This document shows, one piece after another, positions 55,107 through 64,000 of a stretch of 64,000 bases of DNA. This DNA comes from Burkholderiaceae bacterium (GTDB taxonomy: Bacteria; Pseudomonadota; Gammaproteobacteria; Burkholderiales; Burkholderiaceae_C). Under the pieces are notes generated by a model. That model saw nothing but the letters and a program-made list of their open reading frames with translations. It was not told where the DNA came from and searched no databases. The DNA lies in the NCBI GenBank assembly GCA_026125795.1, contig JAHCKM010000001.1, positions 1,736,001 through 1,800,000 on the forward strand. Direction: 5' to 3'. Numbering within the stretch: the stretch's first letter is position 1; every line of letters starts with the position of its first letter. A program made the translations under genes and the position numbers.

Positions 55107-55517
55107 TCAGGACTTGGGCTGCGTCACGGCGACCAGGCCGAGGCCCTCGCCGCGACTGTAGTAGTACTCACCTTGCGGGCTGATCACGACAGCGCGGCAC
55201 GCCGCGGGATCCGAGAAGTAGCGCCAGCCGTGGCCAGGCTCGCCGGCACCGGCGCCGGTGGGAACGGCCTGCATACCATGGTCGAACCAGCTGCCACGGC
55301 GCGCACGCGTGGGGTGTTCGCGGTCGCGGCGGTGATCGCGACTGTCGTACCGGTCTGCACGCGTGTCGCTGATGCGGAAGTCTGATGCATGCATGCTCCT
55401 CTGGGCCTGCGGCGCTGCGCCATCGGCCGCACGGGATCCCCGGCCGTCGGCCAAGGACGAGGTGCTGGCAGCGGTCGCCAGCACAGCGATCGATGCGACG
55501 AGAAGGATCGAGTTCAT
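55107..55517 (-). CDS. Secreted hypothetical protein (136 aa)
   Basis: The product has a signal peptide (MNSILLVASIAVLATAASTSSLADG), then a low-complexity basic/acidic stretch (ISDTRADRYDSRDHRRDREHPTRARRG) and a C-terminal segment that looks folded (GWRYFSDPAACRAVVISPQGEYYYSRGEGLGLVAV). It is therefore periplasmic or outer-membrane associated. AGGACA precedes the ATG. I know no family for it. A direct-repeat box upstream (55604-55620) matches those at the PepSY/two-component promoter, so it may belong to that regulon. Confidence 0.6.
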   Translation of the reverse strand: MNSILLVASIAVLATAASTSSLADGRGSRAADGAAPQAQRSMHASDFRISDTRADRYDSRDHRRDREHPTRARRGSWFDHGMQAVPTGAGAGEPGHGWRYFSDPAACRAVVISPQGEYYYSRGEGLGLVAVTQPKS

Positions 55518-55603: not shown

Positions 55604-55620
55604 GTTCATCTGCCGTTCAT
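55604..55620 (-). promoter_or_regulatory. Response-regulator-type direct repeat, GTTCAT-N5-GTTCAT
   Basis: Two GTTCAT hexamers start 11 bases apart (55604 and 55615). On the minus strand they lie 87-103 bases before the secreted-protein ATG, with CATACA about 18 bases downstream as a possible -10. An 11-base period is typical of OmpR-family regulator sites. Confidence 0.5.
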
Positions 55621-57775: not shown

Positions 57776-58744
57776 CTACGCATCGCCGAACGAGCCCGTA
57801 CCGCTCGCACGAAACCGATCGCCATCCCGCGAGACGATGAGCGCATCGAGCCCGAGCCGCTGCGCGAGTTCACGCCCCGCGCCTTCTCCGAGCACCATCA
57901 GCGCCGTCGCATAGGCATCCGCATCCATGCAGCAGGGGGCGACGACGGTCACGGATGCCGGCGCGCCGCGCAGCGCAGCGCCGCAGCGAGGATCCATGGT
58001 GTGCGAGATGCGATGGCCGTCCAACTCGATCCAGTGGCGGTAGTCGCCCGAGGTCGCCACGGCGGCGTCGCCCAGCTCGACCACGCCCATCGCCGCTCGG
58101 CGAGCGTCCTCGGGCGACTCCAGCGCGATGGACCAGGAGGAGCCGTCGGGCTTGGCCCCGCGTGCGCGCATCTCGCCGTCGATGCCAACGAGCCAGGACC
58201 CGATGCCGTTCGCGTCCAGGACCCGCCCGATTTCGTCGACGCCGAACCCCTTGGCAATGCCGCACAAGTCGAGCGCAACGGCGTCGTGCTTGCGCGCCCG
58301 GCATCCAGGCACGTCGAGCTCGAGTAGTGCCTCTATAGGTGGGCGGGCGCGCGTCCGCGCAGCCACACCCTTCAACTCCCGCGAGCCGGACGGCCCGAAG
58401 CCCCATGCATCGACGAGATCGCCCACGCCGATGTTGAAGGCATTGCCGGTCTCGCGTCCGATCGCGACGGCGCGCGCCAGCACGGTCGTCAGCTTTGCGG
58501 GGATTGGGATCCAGACATCCAGAGCCGCTCGATTGAGGCGCGACAGGTCGGAATGCACCTTCCAGTTGGACATCTGGTTGTCGACGGCAGTGACCGCGGC
58601 CGCGAGCGCGTTGACGATCGCTTGCACGTCAGCCTGCGCCGGCACAGAGAACCGCGCCGTGTAGCGGGTCCCCATGGTCTCGCCGCTCGTGCGGCAATCC
58701 TTCAGACCGAGGTCGGGCAACCACTTAATAGACGTCTTCGACAT
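57776..58744 (-). CDS. apbE: FAD:protein FMN transferase ApbE (copy 2)
   Basis: The 322-residue product has family landmarks: SGETMGTRYTARFSV at the N-terminus, VDNQMSNWKVHSDLSRLNR, FNIGVGDLVDAWGFGP, AVALDLCGIAKGFGVDEIG, VGIDGEMRARG and SHTMDPRCGA. It lacks an obvious cleavable signal peptide, unlike copy 1, so its location is less clear. Its start overlaps the reductase stop by 20 bases. As last gene of the PepSY-DUF2271-reductase operon it should attach FMN to DUF2271, which has a D-G-I-S-G-A-S motif. Confidence 0.93.
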   Translation of the reverse strand: MSKTSIKWLPDLGLKDCRTSGETMGTRYTARFSVPAQADVQAIVNALAAAVTAVDNQMSNWKVHSDLSRLNRAALDVWIPIPAKLTTVLARAVAIGRETGNAFNIGVGDLVDAWGFGPSGSRELKGVAARTRARPPIEALLELDVPGCRARKHDAVALDLCGIAKGFGVDEIGRVLDANGIGSWLVGIDGEMRARGAKPDGSSWSIALESPEDARRAAMGVVELGDAAVATSGDYRHWIELDGHRISHTMDPRCGAALRGAPASVTVVAPCCMDADAYATALMVLGEGAGRELAQRLGLDALIVSRDGDRFRASGTGSFGDA

Positions 58745-60932
58745 AGCGTCCCGCCGTGCGCAACCGTGCGACCGTGAGGCCGGAGCCCGCGAGGATGCGC
58801 TCCCATGCGTCCGCCACGCCCTCGGCCATCTTGCGGCCTCCGCACACCAGAATCTGCGCACCCTGTGCGACCAGCTCGCGCAACCGCGCCGCGTCGACGA
58901 GCAGCCGATCCTGGACGTAGGCCTTGTTGGTCGAGCGCGAGAAGGCGGTGGTCAGTGAGCGCAGGCGCCGATCGCCGACGAGACCCTGTAGTTCCTTCTG
59001 GTACAGGAATCCGTCGTCGGCGTTGCGCGCACCGAAATACAGATGCATGGGCCGCTGCGGCGGGTTGTGGCGAATGAATCCGATCAGCGGTCCGATGCCG
59101 GTGCCCGCTCCCACCAGGATCACCGGTGCCGCGCCCGGGGCCGGACGGAAGCTCTCGTGCGGCCGCACGAAGGCCTCGATGCTCGCACCCGGCTGCAGAG
59201 CCGTGAGGTAGCGCGAGCAGATGCCGTTGGGATGGCGTCGCACGCAGATCTCGACCACGCCGTCGGAGGCTGCGCTGGCCAGCGAGTAGTAGCGAGGGGC
59301 GCCACCGCCCGGGGGCACGACGCCGAGCAGGTCACCGGTCTCGAAAGCCGGCAGCGCCTTGTTGCGCCGCAAGCGCGACTTCTTTGCAGGCGCCGCGGGC
59401 GCGAAGCGAAGGACGGCAGTCAGCGTCTGCGCATCGGTACCGTAGTCGGTGCGCGAGAGGAGCGTCAGCGTCGTCGTGCGCGGAAGCACCGGCGCGTAGC
59501 GGATGTCGAGCGCCACTCCGAGCGTCTCGCCGAGCCACTCGCACCATTGGAGGAACTCGGGTTCGGATTGCCGGTCCACCTCGCCCGGTTGGCGCAATGC
59601 CACCATGCCTTTGGCGCTCATCGCCTCGTGCACCGCGTGTGCGTAGCCGCAGAAGCGCGGGAACTGCCGGTCGCCGAAGCCCAGCACACTGAACGGCGTG
59701 CCGGCCGGGATCGGCGCGCGCGCCAGCCGGTCCAGAAAGAGGCGCGCGCTCTCGGGTGACTCGCCGTCGCCATGCGTTGCAGTCAACACCAGCAGGCGCC
59801 GCCCACCGCGATAGCGGGCCGCAACGTCGTTCATCGGTGCCGTGTGCACGCGCAAGCCGGCGCGCGTCAGCGCGTCGTGCAGCGCCACGGCGAAGCCCCA
59901 GGTTGCATTGCCTTCGCTGCCCACCAGCAGCACGGTGTCGGCGTCCTGCGCCGAAGCATTGCCACGCAAACGCGGTAGCGCCTGGCGCCGGCGCCACCAC
60001 AACAACGTGCCGGTGACACCGAGCAGCGGCACCGTCAGCGATGCCGCGCCCAACACCAGTCCCAGCCACCACAGCCCGTCGCCGGTGTGCAACAGGCGCA
60101 CGGTGGCCTGCAGCGTTTGCCAGCCGTCGAGTGCGCTGTAGGAAAGCCAGTGGCCCGTGGCCGGATCGATCGCGCCGGTGCCGTCTGCGGTTTCCAGCTC
60201 GATCACGTCGGTGGGGTCCCCCCGCGTGGCCAGCTTCAGCTGGCGCAGCCGGGAGGCGCTGACGGCCTGCAGCGCCGGCATGCTGGCGAGCGGGATCGTG
60301 GCGGTGGAACTCGGCCGTGCATCGAGGAAGGGATCCGCACTGCCGCCTTCGGGAATCAGGCCGAATGTGGCCAGCGACATCAGCACACCGGTGATTGCGG
60401 ACAGCGCCAGCGCGACAAAGACCACGCGCGCGGTCTCGTTGTGCAGGCGCTGCAGCGCGTTGCCGCGCACGGGGCCGAACAGCTGCTTCCATCCCCCCAT
60501 GCGGCGGGCGAGCAACAGCACGCCGACGATCACGATGAACAGCATGCAGGCCGCGGCCACGCCGACCGCCACACGCCCTGCGTCGTCGAGCATCAGCTTG
60601 CGATGCAGGTTCTTAACCCAGCGCTGGACCGCCGATGACCGGTACGCGGCCATAGCGGTGCCGGTGGCCGGGTCGATGATGGAAGCCCTCTGATCCTGGC
60701 CCACCATGTGATAGGCGACGATCGCGCCCGAGGGCTGGCGCACCAGCGTCTCGACGCCCGGCACACGCGCGCTCACACGGCCGGCGAGTGTCGCCACGTC
60801 GACCATGCCGGCGTCCCTCGACTGCGCCGCCTCCAGGGCGGGGAACACAGACAGCACCGAGCCCGTCACCGCGACCAGCGCCAGCAGCAGCGCGGCGATC
60901 AGTCCGGGAATCGAATGAAGCGTGCGAAGCAT
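58725..60932 (-). CDS. PepSY membrane / flavodoxin / ferredoxin-reductase fusion
   Basis: The 735-residue protein has PepSY-type membrane segments (about 10-35, 125-145, 165-190 and 295-315; HSIPGLIAALLLALVAVTG; NLHRKLML). A cytoplasmic flavodoxin domain follows at about 340-480 (VLLVGSEGNATWGFA; TATHGDGESPE), then an FAD/NAD(P)H reductase at about 490-735 (RYYSLAS; VGAGTGIGPLIGFIR; ILVCGG). It is built like a CysJ-type electron input fused to a membrane bridge, taking electrons from NAD(P)H to the periplasm. DUF2271 is the likely flavoprotein partner. The gene is within the operon with ApbE, overlapping it by 20 bases. Confidence 0.92.
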   Translation of the reverse strand: MLRTLHSIPGLIAALLLALVAVTGSVLSVFPALEAAQSRDAGMVDVATLAGRVSARVPGVETLVRQPSGAIVAYHMVGQDQRASIIDPATGTAMAAYRSSAVQRWVKNLHRKLMLDDAGRVAVGVAAACMLFIVIVGVLLLARRMGGWKQLFGPVRGNALQRLHNETARVVFVALALSAITGVLMSLATFGLIPEGGSADPFLDARPSSTATIPLASMPALQAVSASRLRQLKLATRGDPTDVIELETADGTGAIDPATGHWLSYSALDGWQTLQATVRLLHTGDGLWWLGLVLGAASLTVPLLGVTGTLLWWRRRQALPRLRGNASAQDADTVLLVGSEGNATWGFAVALHDALTRAGLRVHTAPMNDVAARYRGGRRLLVLTATHGDGESPESARLFLDRLARAPIPAGTPFSVLGFGDRQFPRFCGYAHAVHEAMSAKGMVALRQPGEVDRQSEPEFLQWCEWLGETLGVALDIRYAPVLPRTTTLTLLSRTDYGTDAQTLTAVLRFAPAAPAKKSRLRRNKALPAFETGDLLGVVPPGGGAPRYYSLASAASDGVVEICVRRHPNGICSRYLTALQPGASIEAFVRPHESFRPAPGAAPVILVGAGTGIGPLIGFIRHNPPQRPMHLYFGARNADDGFLYQKELQGLVGDRRLRSLTTAFSRSTNKAYVQDRLLVDAARLRELVAQGAQILVCGGRKMAEGVADAWERILAGSGLTVARLRTAGRYVEDVY

Positions 60933-60948
60933 CGTCCTTGTCGTGTCA

Positions 60949-61416
60949 TCACAGCGTGTAGCGGAAGGACTTGACGTATCCGCGACCGGGCGTGGGCTTG
61001 CCGGCGCCTCCCACGGTGAGCGGTACCACCACGTCCGAGGGGTTCTCCTTCATCTTCTCCACGGCGGTGTCGATGTGGATCTCATAGCCGGCGTCCAGCA
61101 GCGCATCGGCCACTTCGACCGTGACGCGCAAGGCCTTGCCAGCCCCCACGCTCGCGCCGCTGATGCCGTCCACCTTGGCCTTGCCCCCGGTCACTCGGTA
61201 CCAGTCGCTCAAGTGGCGCCAGTACTTGGCCTTGGGTGCTGCGAGCCAGAGCGTGCTCTGATAGCGACCCGTTCGGTCGGTGAGGTAGATGGCGAGATAG
61301 GCACCGTCGCCGCCGTAGTTGTTGAGTTCCGCCTCGAGCGCGACCGGGCGTGCCGACGCGACCGATGGGACCGCGAGCGCGCCCGCGACTGCGGCGAGGG
61401 GCCATGCATGTTTCAT
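60949..61416 (-). CDS. DUF2271 periplasmic protein, probable flavinylation target
   Basis: The 155-residue product has a signal peptide (WPLAAVAGALAVPSVASA), a central AYLAIYLTDRTGRYQSTLWLAAPKAKYWRHLSDWYR typical of DUF2271, then VDGISGASVGAGKALRV and the end GGAGKPTPGRGYVKSF. The DGISGAS matches the ApbE acceptor pattern D-x-x-(S/T)-G-A-(T/S), so a Ser or Thr there may carry covalent FMN. DUF2271 is known from surveys of extracytoplasmic flavinylated systems. The stop lies 16 bases before the reductase start. Confidence 0.88.
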   Translation of the reverse strand: MKHAWPLAAVAGALAVPSVASARPVALEAELNNYGGDGAYLAIYLTDRTGRYQSTLWLAAPKAKYWRHLSDWYRVTGGKAKVDGISGASVGAGKALRVTVEVADALLDAGYEIHIDTAVEKMKENPSDVVVPLTVGGAGKPTPGRGYVKSFRYTL

Positions 61417-61493
61417 TCGAGTACTCCTGATGTCGGTGTTAGGGATAGACCCTGGAGGGCTGCGTTCAGCCGCGTCGAGACCTGCTGCCAGCT

Positions 61494-61859
61494 TCACGAG
61501 CCTGTTGCCGGCCCGCTGGCTGGTGATTTGGGAGAGACCGGAGCGCCTTTGCCCTCGCGTTCGCGTTCGCGTTGGCGGCCGCCTTGCTCGCGCTTCATCT
61601 CGACGACCTGCAGCGTGGCCGGGTCCAGCTTGGCCTTGATGCGGCGACCCTCGGCATCGCGGCCCTTGATTTCGTAGCAGCCGTCGTCGATCTTCAGTCT
61701 TTCCACCTGCCAGCCGTTGCGTTGCGCGAGCGCGTGCACCGCGCTGCGCGGTTGCCACGAATCGGCAGGGGCATCGCAGTCGTCGGCTGCCAGTACCGAC
61801 TGCCCGACGAGGACGAGCATCGCGAAAGCGAGAGTTGGGGTCAGGGGTGGATGACGCAT
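61494..61859 (-). CDS. Secreted PepSY-domain protein
   Basis: The 121-residue product has a signal peptide (PPLTPTLAFAMLVLVGQSVLA) and one PepSY domain (SAVHALAQRNGWQVERLKIDDGCYEIKGRDAEGRRIKAKLDPATLQVVEM). A charged, disordered tail follows. It is periplasmic and heads the leftward flavin operon, 77 bases before DUF2271. PepSY domains often modulate or scaffold partner proteins. Two Cys in the domain (DDCD and DGCYE) may form a disulfide. Confidence 0.85.
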   Translation of the reverse strand: MRHPPLTPTLAFAMLVLVGQSVLAADDCDAPADSWQPRSAVHALAQRNGWQVERLKIDDGCYEIKGRDAEGRRIKAKLDPATLQVVEMKREQGGRQREREREGKGAPVSPKSPASGPATGS

Positions 61860-62062
61860 GGAGCGCGACCTTTGTTCTCAGTCAATGCGGAGGATGCGTT
61901 CGGAAGGTCCAGAAGGTCTTGCGGGATCGCAAATGGACCGGCGTTGCCTCAGGCATGCAGATCGCCGCGGCAACCGTGGTGGCCAGGATGGTCGTTGTGA
62001 ACGAGCGGGACTCCAATCCAGGGCTCCGGGCCAGTGACGGAGCGCAGTGTGCGAAGCGGTGC

Positions 62063-62101
62063 TTGAACGCCGTCTGAAGCTCGCGTTCATCCGGCGTTCA
62101 G
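62063..62101. promoter_or_regulatory. Divergent response-regulator-type direct-repeat boxes
   Basis: GTTCATCCGGCGTTCAG (62085-62101) points right toward the PepSY/two-component genes. On the minus strand, CTTCAGACGGCGTTCAA (62079-62063) points left toward the flavin operon. Both have two TTCA-type halves 11 bases apart, like 55604-55620. The interval 61860-62124 holds no gene. Confidence 0.5.
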
Positions 62102-62124
62102 ATTCGGCCCGCGAGAATCGGCGC

Positions 62125-62463
62125 GTGAACACCTTCCGCACCTCGACCCTGTCGTTGCTTACCGCCGTGCTGGCGCTGCTGCTGACCAGCCCGCGAGCGC
62201 TTGCAGACAACGACCAGGACAGAGCGCGCGCGGCCGTTCAGGCCGGAAAGGTTCTGCCGCTGAAGACCATTCTGGAGCGACTGGAGCGCGATCATCCGGG
62301 CCGACTGCTCGAAGTGGAGCTCGAGGAGGACGACGGACGCTGGCTCTACGAGATCAAGCTGATCGAGCCAGGCGGTCGGTTGGTCAAGCTCAAACTCGAC
62401 GCCGCCAGCGGCGACGTCGTGCGGCGCATTGAGCGTTCGCAAAGGCCGAGCGATCGACGCTGA
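62125..62463 (+). CDS. Small secreted PepSY-domain protein before the two-component genes
   Basis: The 112-residue product from GTG 62125 has a signal peptide (TSTLSLLTAVLALLLTSPRALA) and one PepSY domain (KVLPLKTILERLERDHPGRLLEVELEEDDGRWLYEIKLIEPGGRLVKLKLDAASGDVV). Such a PepSY gene commonly leads PhoP/QseB-type two-component operons and may feed the sensor. It is 14 bases before the regulator GTG. An ATG at 62047 gives a longer frame that would start inside the regulatory boxes and is rejected. Confidence 0.85.
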   Translation: MNTFRTSTLSLLTAVLALLLTSPRALADNDQDRARAAVQAGKVLPLKTILERLERDHPGRLLEVELEEDDGRWLYEIKLIEPGGRLVKLKLDAASGDVVRRIERSQRPSDRR

Positions 62464-62477
62464 TAGGCTCGACGCTC

Positions 62478-63137
62478 GTGCGACTTCTTCTGGTTGAAGA
62501 CGACTCGACCCTGCGTGCGCAGCTTCGCGCTGGCCTGCAAGAGGCCGGCTATGTGGTCGACGAAGCCGACAATGGCCGCGATGCGCACTTCCAGGGTGAC
62601 ACCGAGGCCTACGACGCGGTCGTTCTCGACCTGGGCTTGCCGCTGCTCGACGGTCTCTCCGTGCTCAAGCGTTGGCGCGACGAGGGCCGCACCATGCCGG
62701 TCCTGATCCTGACGGCGCGCGACAACTGGAACGAAAAGGTGGCCGGGATCGACGCCGGCGCCGACGACTACCTGACCAAGCCCTTCCACACGGAAGAATT
62801 GCTCGCCCGTGTGCGCGGCTTGATCCGCCGCGCGGCCGGTCAGGCGGCGCCGGTCCTTCGATGCGGAGAACTCGCCCTGGACACGCGCAGCGGCCGCGTC
62901 ACGTTGGCCGGCCAGGCGTTGACCCTCACCAGCCACGAGTTCAAGGTGCTCGACTACCTGATGCATCGACCGGGTGCGGTGGTCTCGCGCACGGAACTGA
63001 TCGAGCACATCTACGCCCAAGACTTCGATCGCGACTCCAACACGATCGAGGTCTTCGTGGGGCGCCTGCGCAAGAAGCTGCCACCGGGACTGATCGAGAC
63101 CGTTCGCGGCCAGGGCTACCGCCTGGCGGTGGCGTGA
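62478..63137 (+). CDS. OmpR-family response regulator (PhoP/QseB-like)
   Basis: The 219-residue regulator has a receiver (MRLLLVEDDSTLRAQL; Asp in AVVLDLGLPLLDG; Lys in YLTKPFHTEE) and a winged helix (LTLTSHEFKVLDYLMHRPGAVVSRTELIEHIYAQDFDRDSNTIEVFVGRLRKKL). The sensor kinase gene overlaps its stop (GTGA). Its probable sites are the direct repeats at 62063-62101 and 55604-55620, so it would regulate itself, the flavin operon and the secreted 136-aa protein. Confidence 0.94.
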   Translation: MRLLLVEDDSTLRAQLRAGLQEAGYVVDEADNGRDAHFQGDTEAYDAVVLDLGLPLLDGLSVLKRWRDEGRTMPVLILTARDNWNEKVAGIDAGADDYLTKPFHTEELLARVRGLIRRAAGQAAPVLRCGELALDTRSGRVTLAGQALTLTSHEFKVLDYLMHRPGAVVSRTELIEHIYAQDFDRDSNTIEVFVGRLRKKLPPGLIETVRGQGYRLAVA

Positions 63138-64000
63138 GGCCGCGGTTCGGCTCGCTGCGCCTGCGGCTGCTGGGCGCCACGCTGGCGACGCTCGTCCTGG
63201 CGCTTGCCGGAGGGCATTGGTGGCTCACGGGCCTGTTTCGCGACCATGTGCTGCGGCAGTTCGACATCACCTTGTCGCAGCAGCTTGACCAGCTCGCGGC
63301 GCGTCTGGAGTTCGATGACCAGGGCCGTCCCGTCATCGGTCCGCGAGGCATGAGCGATCCACGCTGGGAGAAGCCGTACTCCGGCCTCTACTGGCAGGTC
63401 GAGGGACTCGTTGGCGATCCGGGCCGTCGCCACAGCGTCTTGCGCTCGCGCTCGCTGTGGGATGCCGAACTGCGTCTGCCCGACGATGCCCTGGCCGATG
63501 GCGCGGTGCACCGGCATGACATCGTCGGACCCCGGGGCGAGCGGCTTCGCGTCGTGGAGCGCTCGCTGCAGACACCCGCGCCAGCGGAGTCCCGATGGCG
63601 CCTGATCGTGGCGGGTGACATGCTCGATGCGGCTGCGGCCATCGATCGCTTCACTGGCGTGCTGGCGGCGTCGCTCGTCGGTCTCGGCGTGCTGCTGGCG
63701 CTTGCCGCGCTGGCCCAGGTCGCCGTGGGGCTGGCACCGCTCAAGGCCATGCAGCAGGGGCTGCAACGCGTACGGGAAGGTCGGGAGCAGCGCCTGGGGG
63801 GTCGGTTCCCGGCCGAGGTGCAGCCCCTCATCGACGAGTTCAACGGCGTGCTTGATCGAAACGCGGAGGTCGTGGCGCGCGCCCGGGCCCACGCGGGCAA
63901 TCTCGCGCATGCCTTGAAGACGCCGCTGGCCATACTCGGTCAGGCGGCACGCAAGGCCGGACCGTCCGAGTTCTCGGCGCTCGTGAACGAGCAGGTCCAG
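63134..64000 (+). CDS. Sensor histidine kinase (PhoQ-like), 3' end outside window
   Basis: The visible 289 residues start at GTG 63134, overlapping the regulator stop by four bases. There is a first helix at about 9-31 (LRLLGATLATLVLALAGG), a periplasmic domain of about 140 residues with DPRWEKPYSGLYWQVEG (a fold also seen in PhoQ-like kinases), a second helix at about 175-195, a HAMP-type linker, and the phospho-acceptor His259 in NLAHALKTPLAIL. The ATPase domain continues past the edge. It should sense a periplasmic signal, perhaps with the PepSY proteins or the flavin system. Confidence 0.93.
   Translation, partial: MRPRFGSLRLRLLGATLATLVLALAGGHWWLTGLFRDHVLRQFDITLSQQLDQLAARLEFDDQGRPVIGPRGMSDPRWEKPYSGLYWQVEGLVGDPGRRHSVLRSRSLWDAELRLPDDALADGAVHRHDIVGPRGERLRVVERSLQTPAPAESRWRLIVAGDMLDAAAAIDRFTGVLAASLVGLGVLLALAALAQVAVGLAPLKAMQQGLQRVREGREQRLGGRFPAEVQPLIDEFNGVLDRNAEVVARARAHAGNLAHALKTPLAILGQAARKAGPSEFSALVNEQVQ

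Follow-up and report, generated by a model that had tools for sequence, protein, structure and literature searches.

What does a four-gene flavin module do when it is set back to back with a two-component system (TCS), and does that system control it? The question is raised by a locus in the 64,000-nucleotide stretch of Burkholderiaceae bacterium DNA analyzed here (G000:C1:1736001-1800000; hereafter the window), in which a leftward operon encodes a small PepSY_2 protein, DUF2271 (the only copy found by genome scan in the source genome), a fusion of PepSY_TM with flavodoxin and NAD(P)H-reductase domains, and ApbE, a flavin adenine dinucleotide (FAD):protein flavin mononucleotide (FMN) transferase, while the divergent rightward genes encode a PepSY protein, a response regulator and an SK1-type sensor kinase (Table 1). 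Judged from sequence, the gene set is likely to pass electrons from inside the cell to a flavin protein beyond the inner membrane, and the best explanation of the locus, which we favor with reserve, is a periplasm-directed reducing wire under an envelope-sensing switch.

According to Pfam, the fusion comprises PepSY_TM (PF03929, residues 4-315), Flavodoxin_1 (336-458) and NAD_binding_1 (606-707), with an additional sub-threshold FAD_binding_6 match; its closest solved relatives are P450 reductases and CysJ, the match covering the reductase part. Among 76 fusion sequences, S665, R666, V673 and Q674 were at least 97% conserved, a pattern that resembles the NADPH motif of P450 reductase. In the same sequences His110, His164 and His282 were invariant and His6 was present in 67, the other nine having gaps there, and the PepSY_TM membrane part thus appears to keep histidines of the heme-ligand type; two heme sites with two histidines each have been described for this kind of PepSY protein (PMC11334425).

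On the receiving side, G84, G87, A88 and S89 of DUF2271 (GxxGAS) were invariant in 19/19 aligned homologues, and a scan of ApbE, the fusion, DUF2271 and the two PepSY proteins for [ST]GA[ST] returned the SGAS of DUF2271 as its single match. The D-G-I-S-G-A-S acceptor motif proposed in an earlier note on this DNA is therefore retained as SGAS (residues 86-89) and loses its leading D, which is not invariant. In a hydrophobicity scan, leaders were detected in DUF2271 at 37/37 family loci and 72/80 named loci (both sets are described below), in 19/19 PSYp and in 35/36 PSY2 proteins; no Tat motif was found in DUF2271 by the leader scan, and a profile search for a solved DUF2271 fold gave no relative below E 0.7. 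A DUF2271 homologue has been shown to be flavinylated by its ApbE in E. coli, the acceptor Thr being required (PMC8238504), and a DUF4198-type relative of the module has been studied in Caulobacter (PMC12004947, PMC3751524), so that the remark in the earlier note that no function is defined for such a set was too sweeping. Its proposed transmembrane wire from NAD(P)H to flavin agrees with the cofactor domains, the conserved histidines and the conserved SGAS, from which it may be deduced.

We next consider how far this arrangement recurs. DUF2271 was present in 38/399 family genomes, and 37 of these loci were compared, a fragment at a contig end (G356) being left out. The four leftward genes stood in order at 33/37, which argues against a chance arrangement; contig ends cut L045 and L066, and the fusion is missing from L034 and L069, of which L034 keeps its TCS but carries an internal stop in DUF2271. 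Loss of this order in related genomes, which the earlier note had named as grounds for abandoning its proposal, is thus not what we observed. Near or within the operon, a ferric-reductase-like flavocytochrome occurred at nine family loci and cytochrome b561 at ten. Among the named loci, which are the best 80 of 584 chosen by similarity and not a random set, the fusion followed in 80 and ApbE in 75. One of these modules, at L123, lies together with a TCS of the second class described below on plasmid p1 of Cupriavidus pinatubonensis HN-2, which indicates that the module can move.

PepSY, regulator and kinase genes were divergent upstream in 19/37 family loci (at L061 they lie at about 6 kb), and a divergent regulator stood upstream in 51/80 named loci, 50 of them best matching a second, non-SK1 class and one matching SK1. 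A phylum sample gave PF10029 matches in 47/299 genomes, 43 above the cut-off, and 20 loci were inspected. The 12 high-score loci all had DUF4198 beside DUF2271 and none had a regulator match; among the seven low-score loci, which resemble that of the window, DUF4198 was beside DUF2271 in none and a divergent TCS was present in five. The twentieth, L205, is arranged otherwise, with DUF4198 about 1.3 kb off. No DUF4198 lay beside the DUF2271 locus in the 37 family genomes, the nearest one in the source genome being on contig C6. The subtype without DUF4198 is accordingly often set divergent to a TCS, and two TCS classes are involved.

The kinase of the window carries the SK1 motifs in its sensor part (SGLYWQ at 83, RSRSLWD at 104). 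Regular expressions for the SGVYWQ and RSRSLWD variants matched 15 and 18, respectively, of 20 clustered family kinases, and SK1 motifs occurred in none of the 30 second-class kinases that were called in full. An SK1-class kinase (E <= 1e-40) was found in 29/37 DUF2271 genomes, the other eight having only weaker matches (best E 6e-24).

The promoter shared by the two arms has a characteristic layout. In the 19 TCS-linked family loci it contains TGAA-N7-TGAA, usually followed 22 bp on by TTCA-N7-TTCA; this dyad was present in 18/19 linked regions, compared to at most 5/19 for any dyad in 30 Markov-resampled sets, and the one miss (L060) was a misplaced region in which both boxes were seen on re-examination. 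Three exact boxes occur in the window, all at this locus. In ten genomes whose kinase is not linked to the operon, a box was found at most 220 bp from the first match of the operon in 10/10, whereas only two of the eight genomes without an SK1-class kinase had a box before the operon, namely L058 and, at 278 bp, L065 (Fisher p 0.0015; 0.0034 when one locus short of upstream sequence is set aside). Likewise, 39 loci from kinase-bearing genomes held 120 boxes in 673,612 bases, and the eight kinase-free loci five in 134,106 bases. At those 39 loci a box lay at most 250 bp upstream of PSYp in 28/28 cases, c7 in 13/16, extra PepSY genes in 6/6, PSY2 in 11/26, YceI in 3/3, SHP in 4/5, FRE in 5/9, cytb561 in 6/13, CDF in 2/3, P-ATPase in 2/14, NADred in 1/1, c20 in 1/5, RR in 1/35 and unlabelled genes in 14/346, the labels having been picked after inspection of the loci and genes that share a divergent promoter with PSYp counting the same boxes. 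The second TCS class has a dyad of its own, CTGA-N7-CTGA, in 44/50 regions, compared to at most 8/50 in ten resampled sets. In many relatives a -10-like sequence was seen by eye a few bases before the PepSY start (window 62086-62125), and the PepSY mRNA may be leaderless.

The same kinase class was then examined where DUF2271 is absent, in 20 SK1 loci (18 of them high-scoring) sampled from 92 DUF2271-free genomes. At 18 of these loci at least one of SHP, diheme cytochrome c and cytochrome b was divergent (at least two in 16, cytochrome b only in two), and the remaining two had PepSY plus a ferric-reductase-like gene. Both boxes were present 22 bp apart in 17 of the 20, one box in two and none in one. 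L214 retains the CDF-kinase-regulator-PepSY order of the source genome with SHP, diheme cytochrome c and cytochrome b genes opposite. The seven closest relatives of the kinase in the 37 genomes (52-80% identity) all lie away from a DUF2271 operon, several of them facing SHP (DUF1924)-diheme cytochrome-cytochrome b genes or a P-type ATPase. SHP, diheme cytochrome c and cytochrome b are absent at the locus of the window; the source genome has its own SHP genes on contig C2 (G000:C2:156703), beside a different kinase (30% identity). From sequence comparison, the flavin wire therefore looks like an exchangeable cargo of the switch. A further kind of cargo was seen at L061 and L088, where the genes divergent to PepSY, regulator and kinase encode a TetR-like regulator together with an ABC/membrane-fusion exporter set.

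Each side has known counterparts. Meheust 2021 describes PepSY-like systems as a PF03929 or PF16357 protein clustered with ApbE, FMN-binding, DUF2271 or DUF3570 genes and at least one leader (PMC8238504), and the locus has this composition, including an [ST]GA[ST] acceptor. It shares with those systems ApbE, the SGAS-type motif, DUF2271 (2833/3220 clusters) and the PepSY_TM protein, to which an NAD-binding domain is often joined (1077 genes in that study); in contrast to them, PepSY_2 replaces DUF4198 here, ApbE is leaderless and a TCS is divergent, and in the main text of that study kinase or regulator terms occur in one reference title only (PMC8238504). The heme-binding PepSY_TM part with its conserved histidines is also common to the metalloreductases FoxB, HiuB and CrpH, for which the available texts describe neither a fused flavodoxin/reductase domain nor a DUF2271 partner (PMC11334425, PMC12424826, PMC13038864).

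On the control side, Meyer 2010 reported that in two species Orf1, regulator and SK1 genes stand divergent to Orf1-cytB-SHP-DHC, and that some SHP operons have CzcD close by (PMC2909971). That layout and the present one have in common a regulator and SK1 facing an electron-transfer operon at a divergent promoter, together with the SGVYWQ and RSRSLWD motifs, and differ in cargo, a flavin module here taking the place of SHP, diheme cytochrome c and cytochrome b. The Orf1 place beside the regulator and SK1 is occupied here by a PepSY gene, and Orf1 may itself be a PepSY protein. As in DbfQRS-like modules, a small secreted protein with a single PepSY domain is encoded within four genes of the kinase and regulator, and in Nguyen 2025 such a protein binds its kinase (PMC12714742); the PepSY protein beside the regulator is more likely a kinase modulator than an electron carrier, and the view of the earlier note that the kinase senses the need is a conjecture. 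DbfQRS governs biofilm genes in Vibrio cholerae, and the word flavin does not occur in the available text of that work (PMC12714742). Our search of open-licence PubMed Central papers found no work, in the texts available there, that joins Orf1/regulator/SK1 or DbfQRS with DUF2271/PepSY flavin systems. The electron module and the control side are each of a known kind; their combination is new and recurs.

Table 1. Position, strand and supporting evidence of the features at the locus (window coordinates)
Feature	Position	Strand	Basis
ApbE, FAD:protein FMN transferase without export leader	57776..58744	-	PF02424 E 3e-71; no hydrophobic leader
PepSY_TM-flavodoxin-NAD(P)H reductase fusion, 735 aa	58725..60932	-	Pfam; conserved His
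DUF2271, exported, predicted FMN carrier	60949..61416	-	PF10029 E 4e-33; leader-like N-terminus
SGAS flavin-acceptor motif, DUF2271 residues 86-89	61150..61161	-	homologue alignment; motif scan
Small secreted PepSY_2 protein, leftward operon gene 1	61494..61859	-	PF13670 E 5e-26; leader-like
Predicted regulator box TGAA-N7-TGAA (TTCA-N7-TTCA seen towards leftward operon)	62064..62078	-	pattern scan
Predicted regulator box TTCA-N7-TTCA towards rightward operon	62086..62100	+	pattern scan
Small secreted PepSY protein, Orf1/DbfQ-like position	62125..62463	+	PF03413 E 4e-11; leader-like
OmpR-type response regulator	62478..63137	+	PF00072 and PF00486
SK1-type sensor kinase, gene cut by window end	63134..64000, on to about 64510	+	SGLYWQ, RSRSLWD; HATPase_c on full gene
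Third regulator-type box, before small gene c7	55605..55619	+	pattern scan; second half-site one mismatch, by eye
Small gene c7, 136 aa, candidate regulon member	55107..55517	-	box before 13/16 called copies in relatives

Pfam profiles and open reading frames bear out that the genes named in the earlier note exist and are in frame, with likely starts at 58744 (ApbE), 61416 (DUF2271) and 62125 (rightward PepSY, GTG). The range it gave, 57776-62463, covers the leftward operon and the PepSY gene and omits the regulator and the kinase; the full kinase, of 458 aa, was read in L033. Past the kinase (L033:10554-14676, equivalent to about 64553-68675 of the window), a CDF metal exporter comes first, followed by an FAD/NAD reductase that contains a 2Fe-2S domain, then a membrane protein with no match in Pfam and lastly a multiheme c-type cytochrome. 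Between the CDF and FAD/NAD reductase genes sits an exact box. Relatives of c7 lie near the operon in 13 family loci, and Pfam gave no match for the c7 homologue tested.

Under the reducing-wire explanation, NADPH would, as the domains suggest, reduce FAD, which would pass the electrons on to the flavodoxin domain with its FMN; two hemes b held by the conserved histidines of the PepSY_TM part would take them over and hand them to the covalent FMN at Ser89 of exported DUF2271. The periplasmic acceptor at the end would most probably be a metal, either Fe or Cu, or else a protein or heme target in oxidised form. The secreted PepSY protein would restrain the SK1 kinase; upon a signal the regulator would be phosphorylated, bind the back-to-back TTCA-N7-TTCA boxes and turn both arms on. 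Since relatives place SHP-diheme cytochrome-cytochrome b, cytochrome b561 or a ferric-reductase-like flavocytochrome opposite a switch of the same class, the flavin module may be an exchangeable cargo with a comparable job.

Several observations weigh against this explanation. An export leader is missing from ApbE but present in DUF2271. The leftward box lies about 205 bp from the PepSY_2 start, beyond the distance in some relatives. The window operon belongs to a seven-row clade of the fusion tree whose other six members (L113, L115, L117, L119, L121 and L122) all lack a divergent TCS; within 3.2 kb these six nearest relatives also showed no exact box, which indicates that the link was not inherited in the operon's own lineage. 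The co-occurrence that speaks for the explanation, with the kinase in 30/38 DUF2271 genomes compared to 92/361 others (p 1e-10, assuming that both scans covered the same 399 genomes), is a statistic that ignores kinship. Finally, a whole-genome pattern scan gave 59 box matches, four of them local, compared to 13 for the backward control, and among the 20 viewed regions, which hold 21 of the 55 non-local boxes, none has a box preceding a gene of the labelled set; in five of the 20 the box is inside a called gene. A wider regulon in the source genome was rejected on this basis (0/20 viewed regions fitting), and our claim is kept to the local boxes; a match at C2:155800, about 0.9 kb before the SHP gene, was not counted.

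The alternative that survives best, although we regard it as rather unlikely, is that of a known PepSY-like iron-assimilation reductase that reduces periplasmic Fe(III) for uptake, with the TCS as one more iron sensor. It draws on Caulobacter CCNA_03155-03159, which shares the PepSY-type reductase, DUF2271 and an ApbE-like gene, is targeted by Fur, loses fitness in ethylenediaminetetraacetic acid (EDTA) when it carries insertions, and for which periplasmic ferric reduction has been proposed (PMC3751524, PMC12004947), as well as on the iron-responsive Pseudomonas SK-type relative BqsS (PMC12714742) and on the ferric-reductase-like genes that share the promoter in some relatives. The Caulobacter genes include DUF4198, unlike those of the window, and are Fur-regulated, with no TCS mentioned in the available texts (PMC3751524, PMC12004947), and the distribution of DUF4198 beside DUF2271 (12/12 high-score loci, all without a regulator match, versus 0/7 low-score and 0/37 family loci) separates that type from the present one. 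Moreover, the recurrent transporters nearby are CDF exporters, not importers, and the Vibrio DbfQRS reporter was unchanged by Fe(II) or Fe(III) (PMC12714742). A scan of the 19 TCS-linked promoters with the Fur consensus gave one nominal match (L052, p 0.02), in a test that placed only 2/12 positive-control DUF4198 loci below p 0.05.

It is improbable, in our estimate, that a rearrangement brought the operon next to an SK1 system by accident and that it relies on a promoter of its own. The window is the only TCS-bearing member of its fusion clade, its closest operons lack the box and, within the 37 genomes, the nearest relatives of its kinase have no linked DUF2271, all of which would suit such an accident. 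It fits poorly with the double box of the window, which matches the layout of linked relatives at 22 bp spacing, with the placement of all three window boxes at this locus, and with the fusion tree, where SK1-linked rows occupy three separate parts (the window, L173 and the family clade) and 52 rows are linked to the second TCS class. On this tree the TCS label changes 16 times, compared to 41-52 times in 20 shuffles; the tree is a quick one of 116 rows without bootstrap, and change counts do not separate gain from loss. The scatter of SK1-linked rows fits repeated recruitment, and given this scatter a single origin of all SK1 linkage, which was also considered, is not favored. The earlier proposal that the module is wired to its own TCS is thus backed by the conserved divergent boxes and the repeated linkage, and weakened by the absence of a divergent TCS beside the operon in all six nearest relatives.

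As to ApbE, the hydrophobicity scan detected leaders in 0/33 family and 0/69 named proteins with a readable start (two and six more were unreadable). Four ApbE proteins of the DUF4198 type were likewise under the leader threshold, so that the TCS subtype is not alone in having a leaderless ApbE. In the published test pair the signal peptides were taken off for expression, which implies that that ApbE had one. A leaderless ApbE that here serves some cytoplasmic target instead of DUF2271 would suit the contrast with the leaders of DUF2271 (37/37 and 72/80), but we consider this very improbable, since the SGAS of DUF2271 is invariant and the sole acceptor motif among the five proteins checked, and a homologous ApbE/DUF2271 pair functions in E. 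coli. The acceptor motif thus speaks for the earlier claim that ApbE loads FMN on DUF2271; with no export leader on ApbE, the loading may precede export, or ApbE may be exported by some other route.

Going beyond the reducing-wire explanation, we put forward tentatively, and with more doubt than conviction, that the NADPH-heme-flavin wire of DUF2271 and the quinol-cytochrome-SHP chain might stand in for each other in meeting a single envelope problem that one sensor class, SK1 with PepSY, signals. If so, the SHP substrate and the DUF2271 acceptor would be the same or closely related, and ApbE would load FMN onto DUF2271 in the cytoplasm, ahead of its export.

With an exported substrate and an ApbE that has no leader, the place of covalent flavinylation becomes a direct question. 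No acceptor is agreed for either of two electron-transfer systems, flavinylated DUF2271 and SHP/diheme cytochrome c, and the shared predicted box, together with the apparent exchange of cargo at one type of promoter, ties the two systems together and gives one inducing signal to seek. That the same switch stands before flavin and heme chains hints that both answer the same need.

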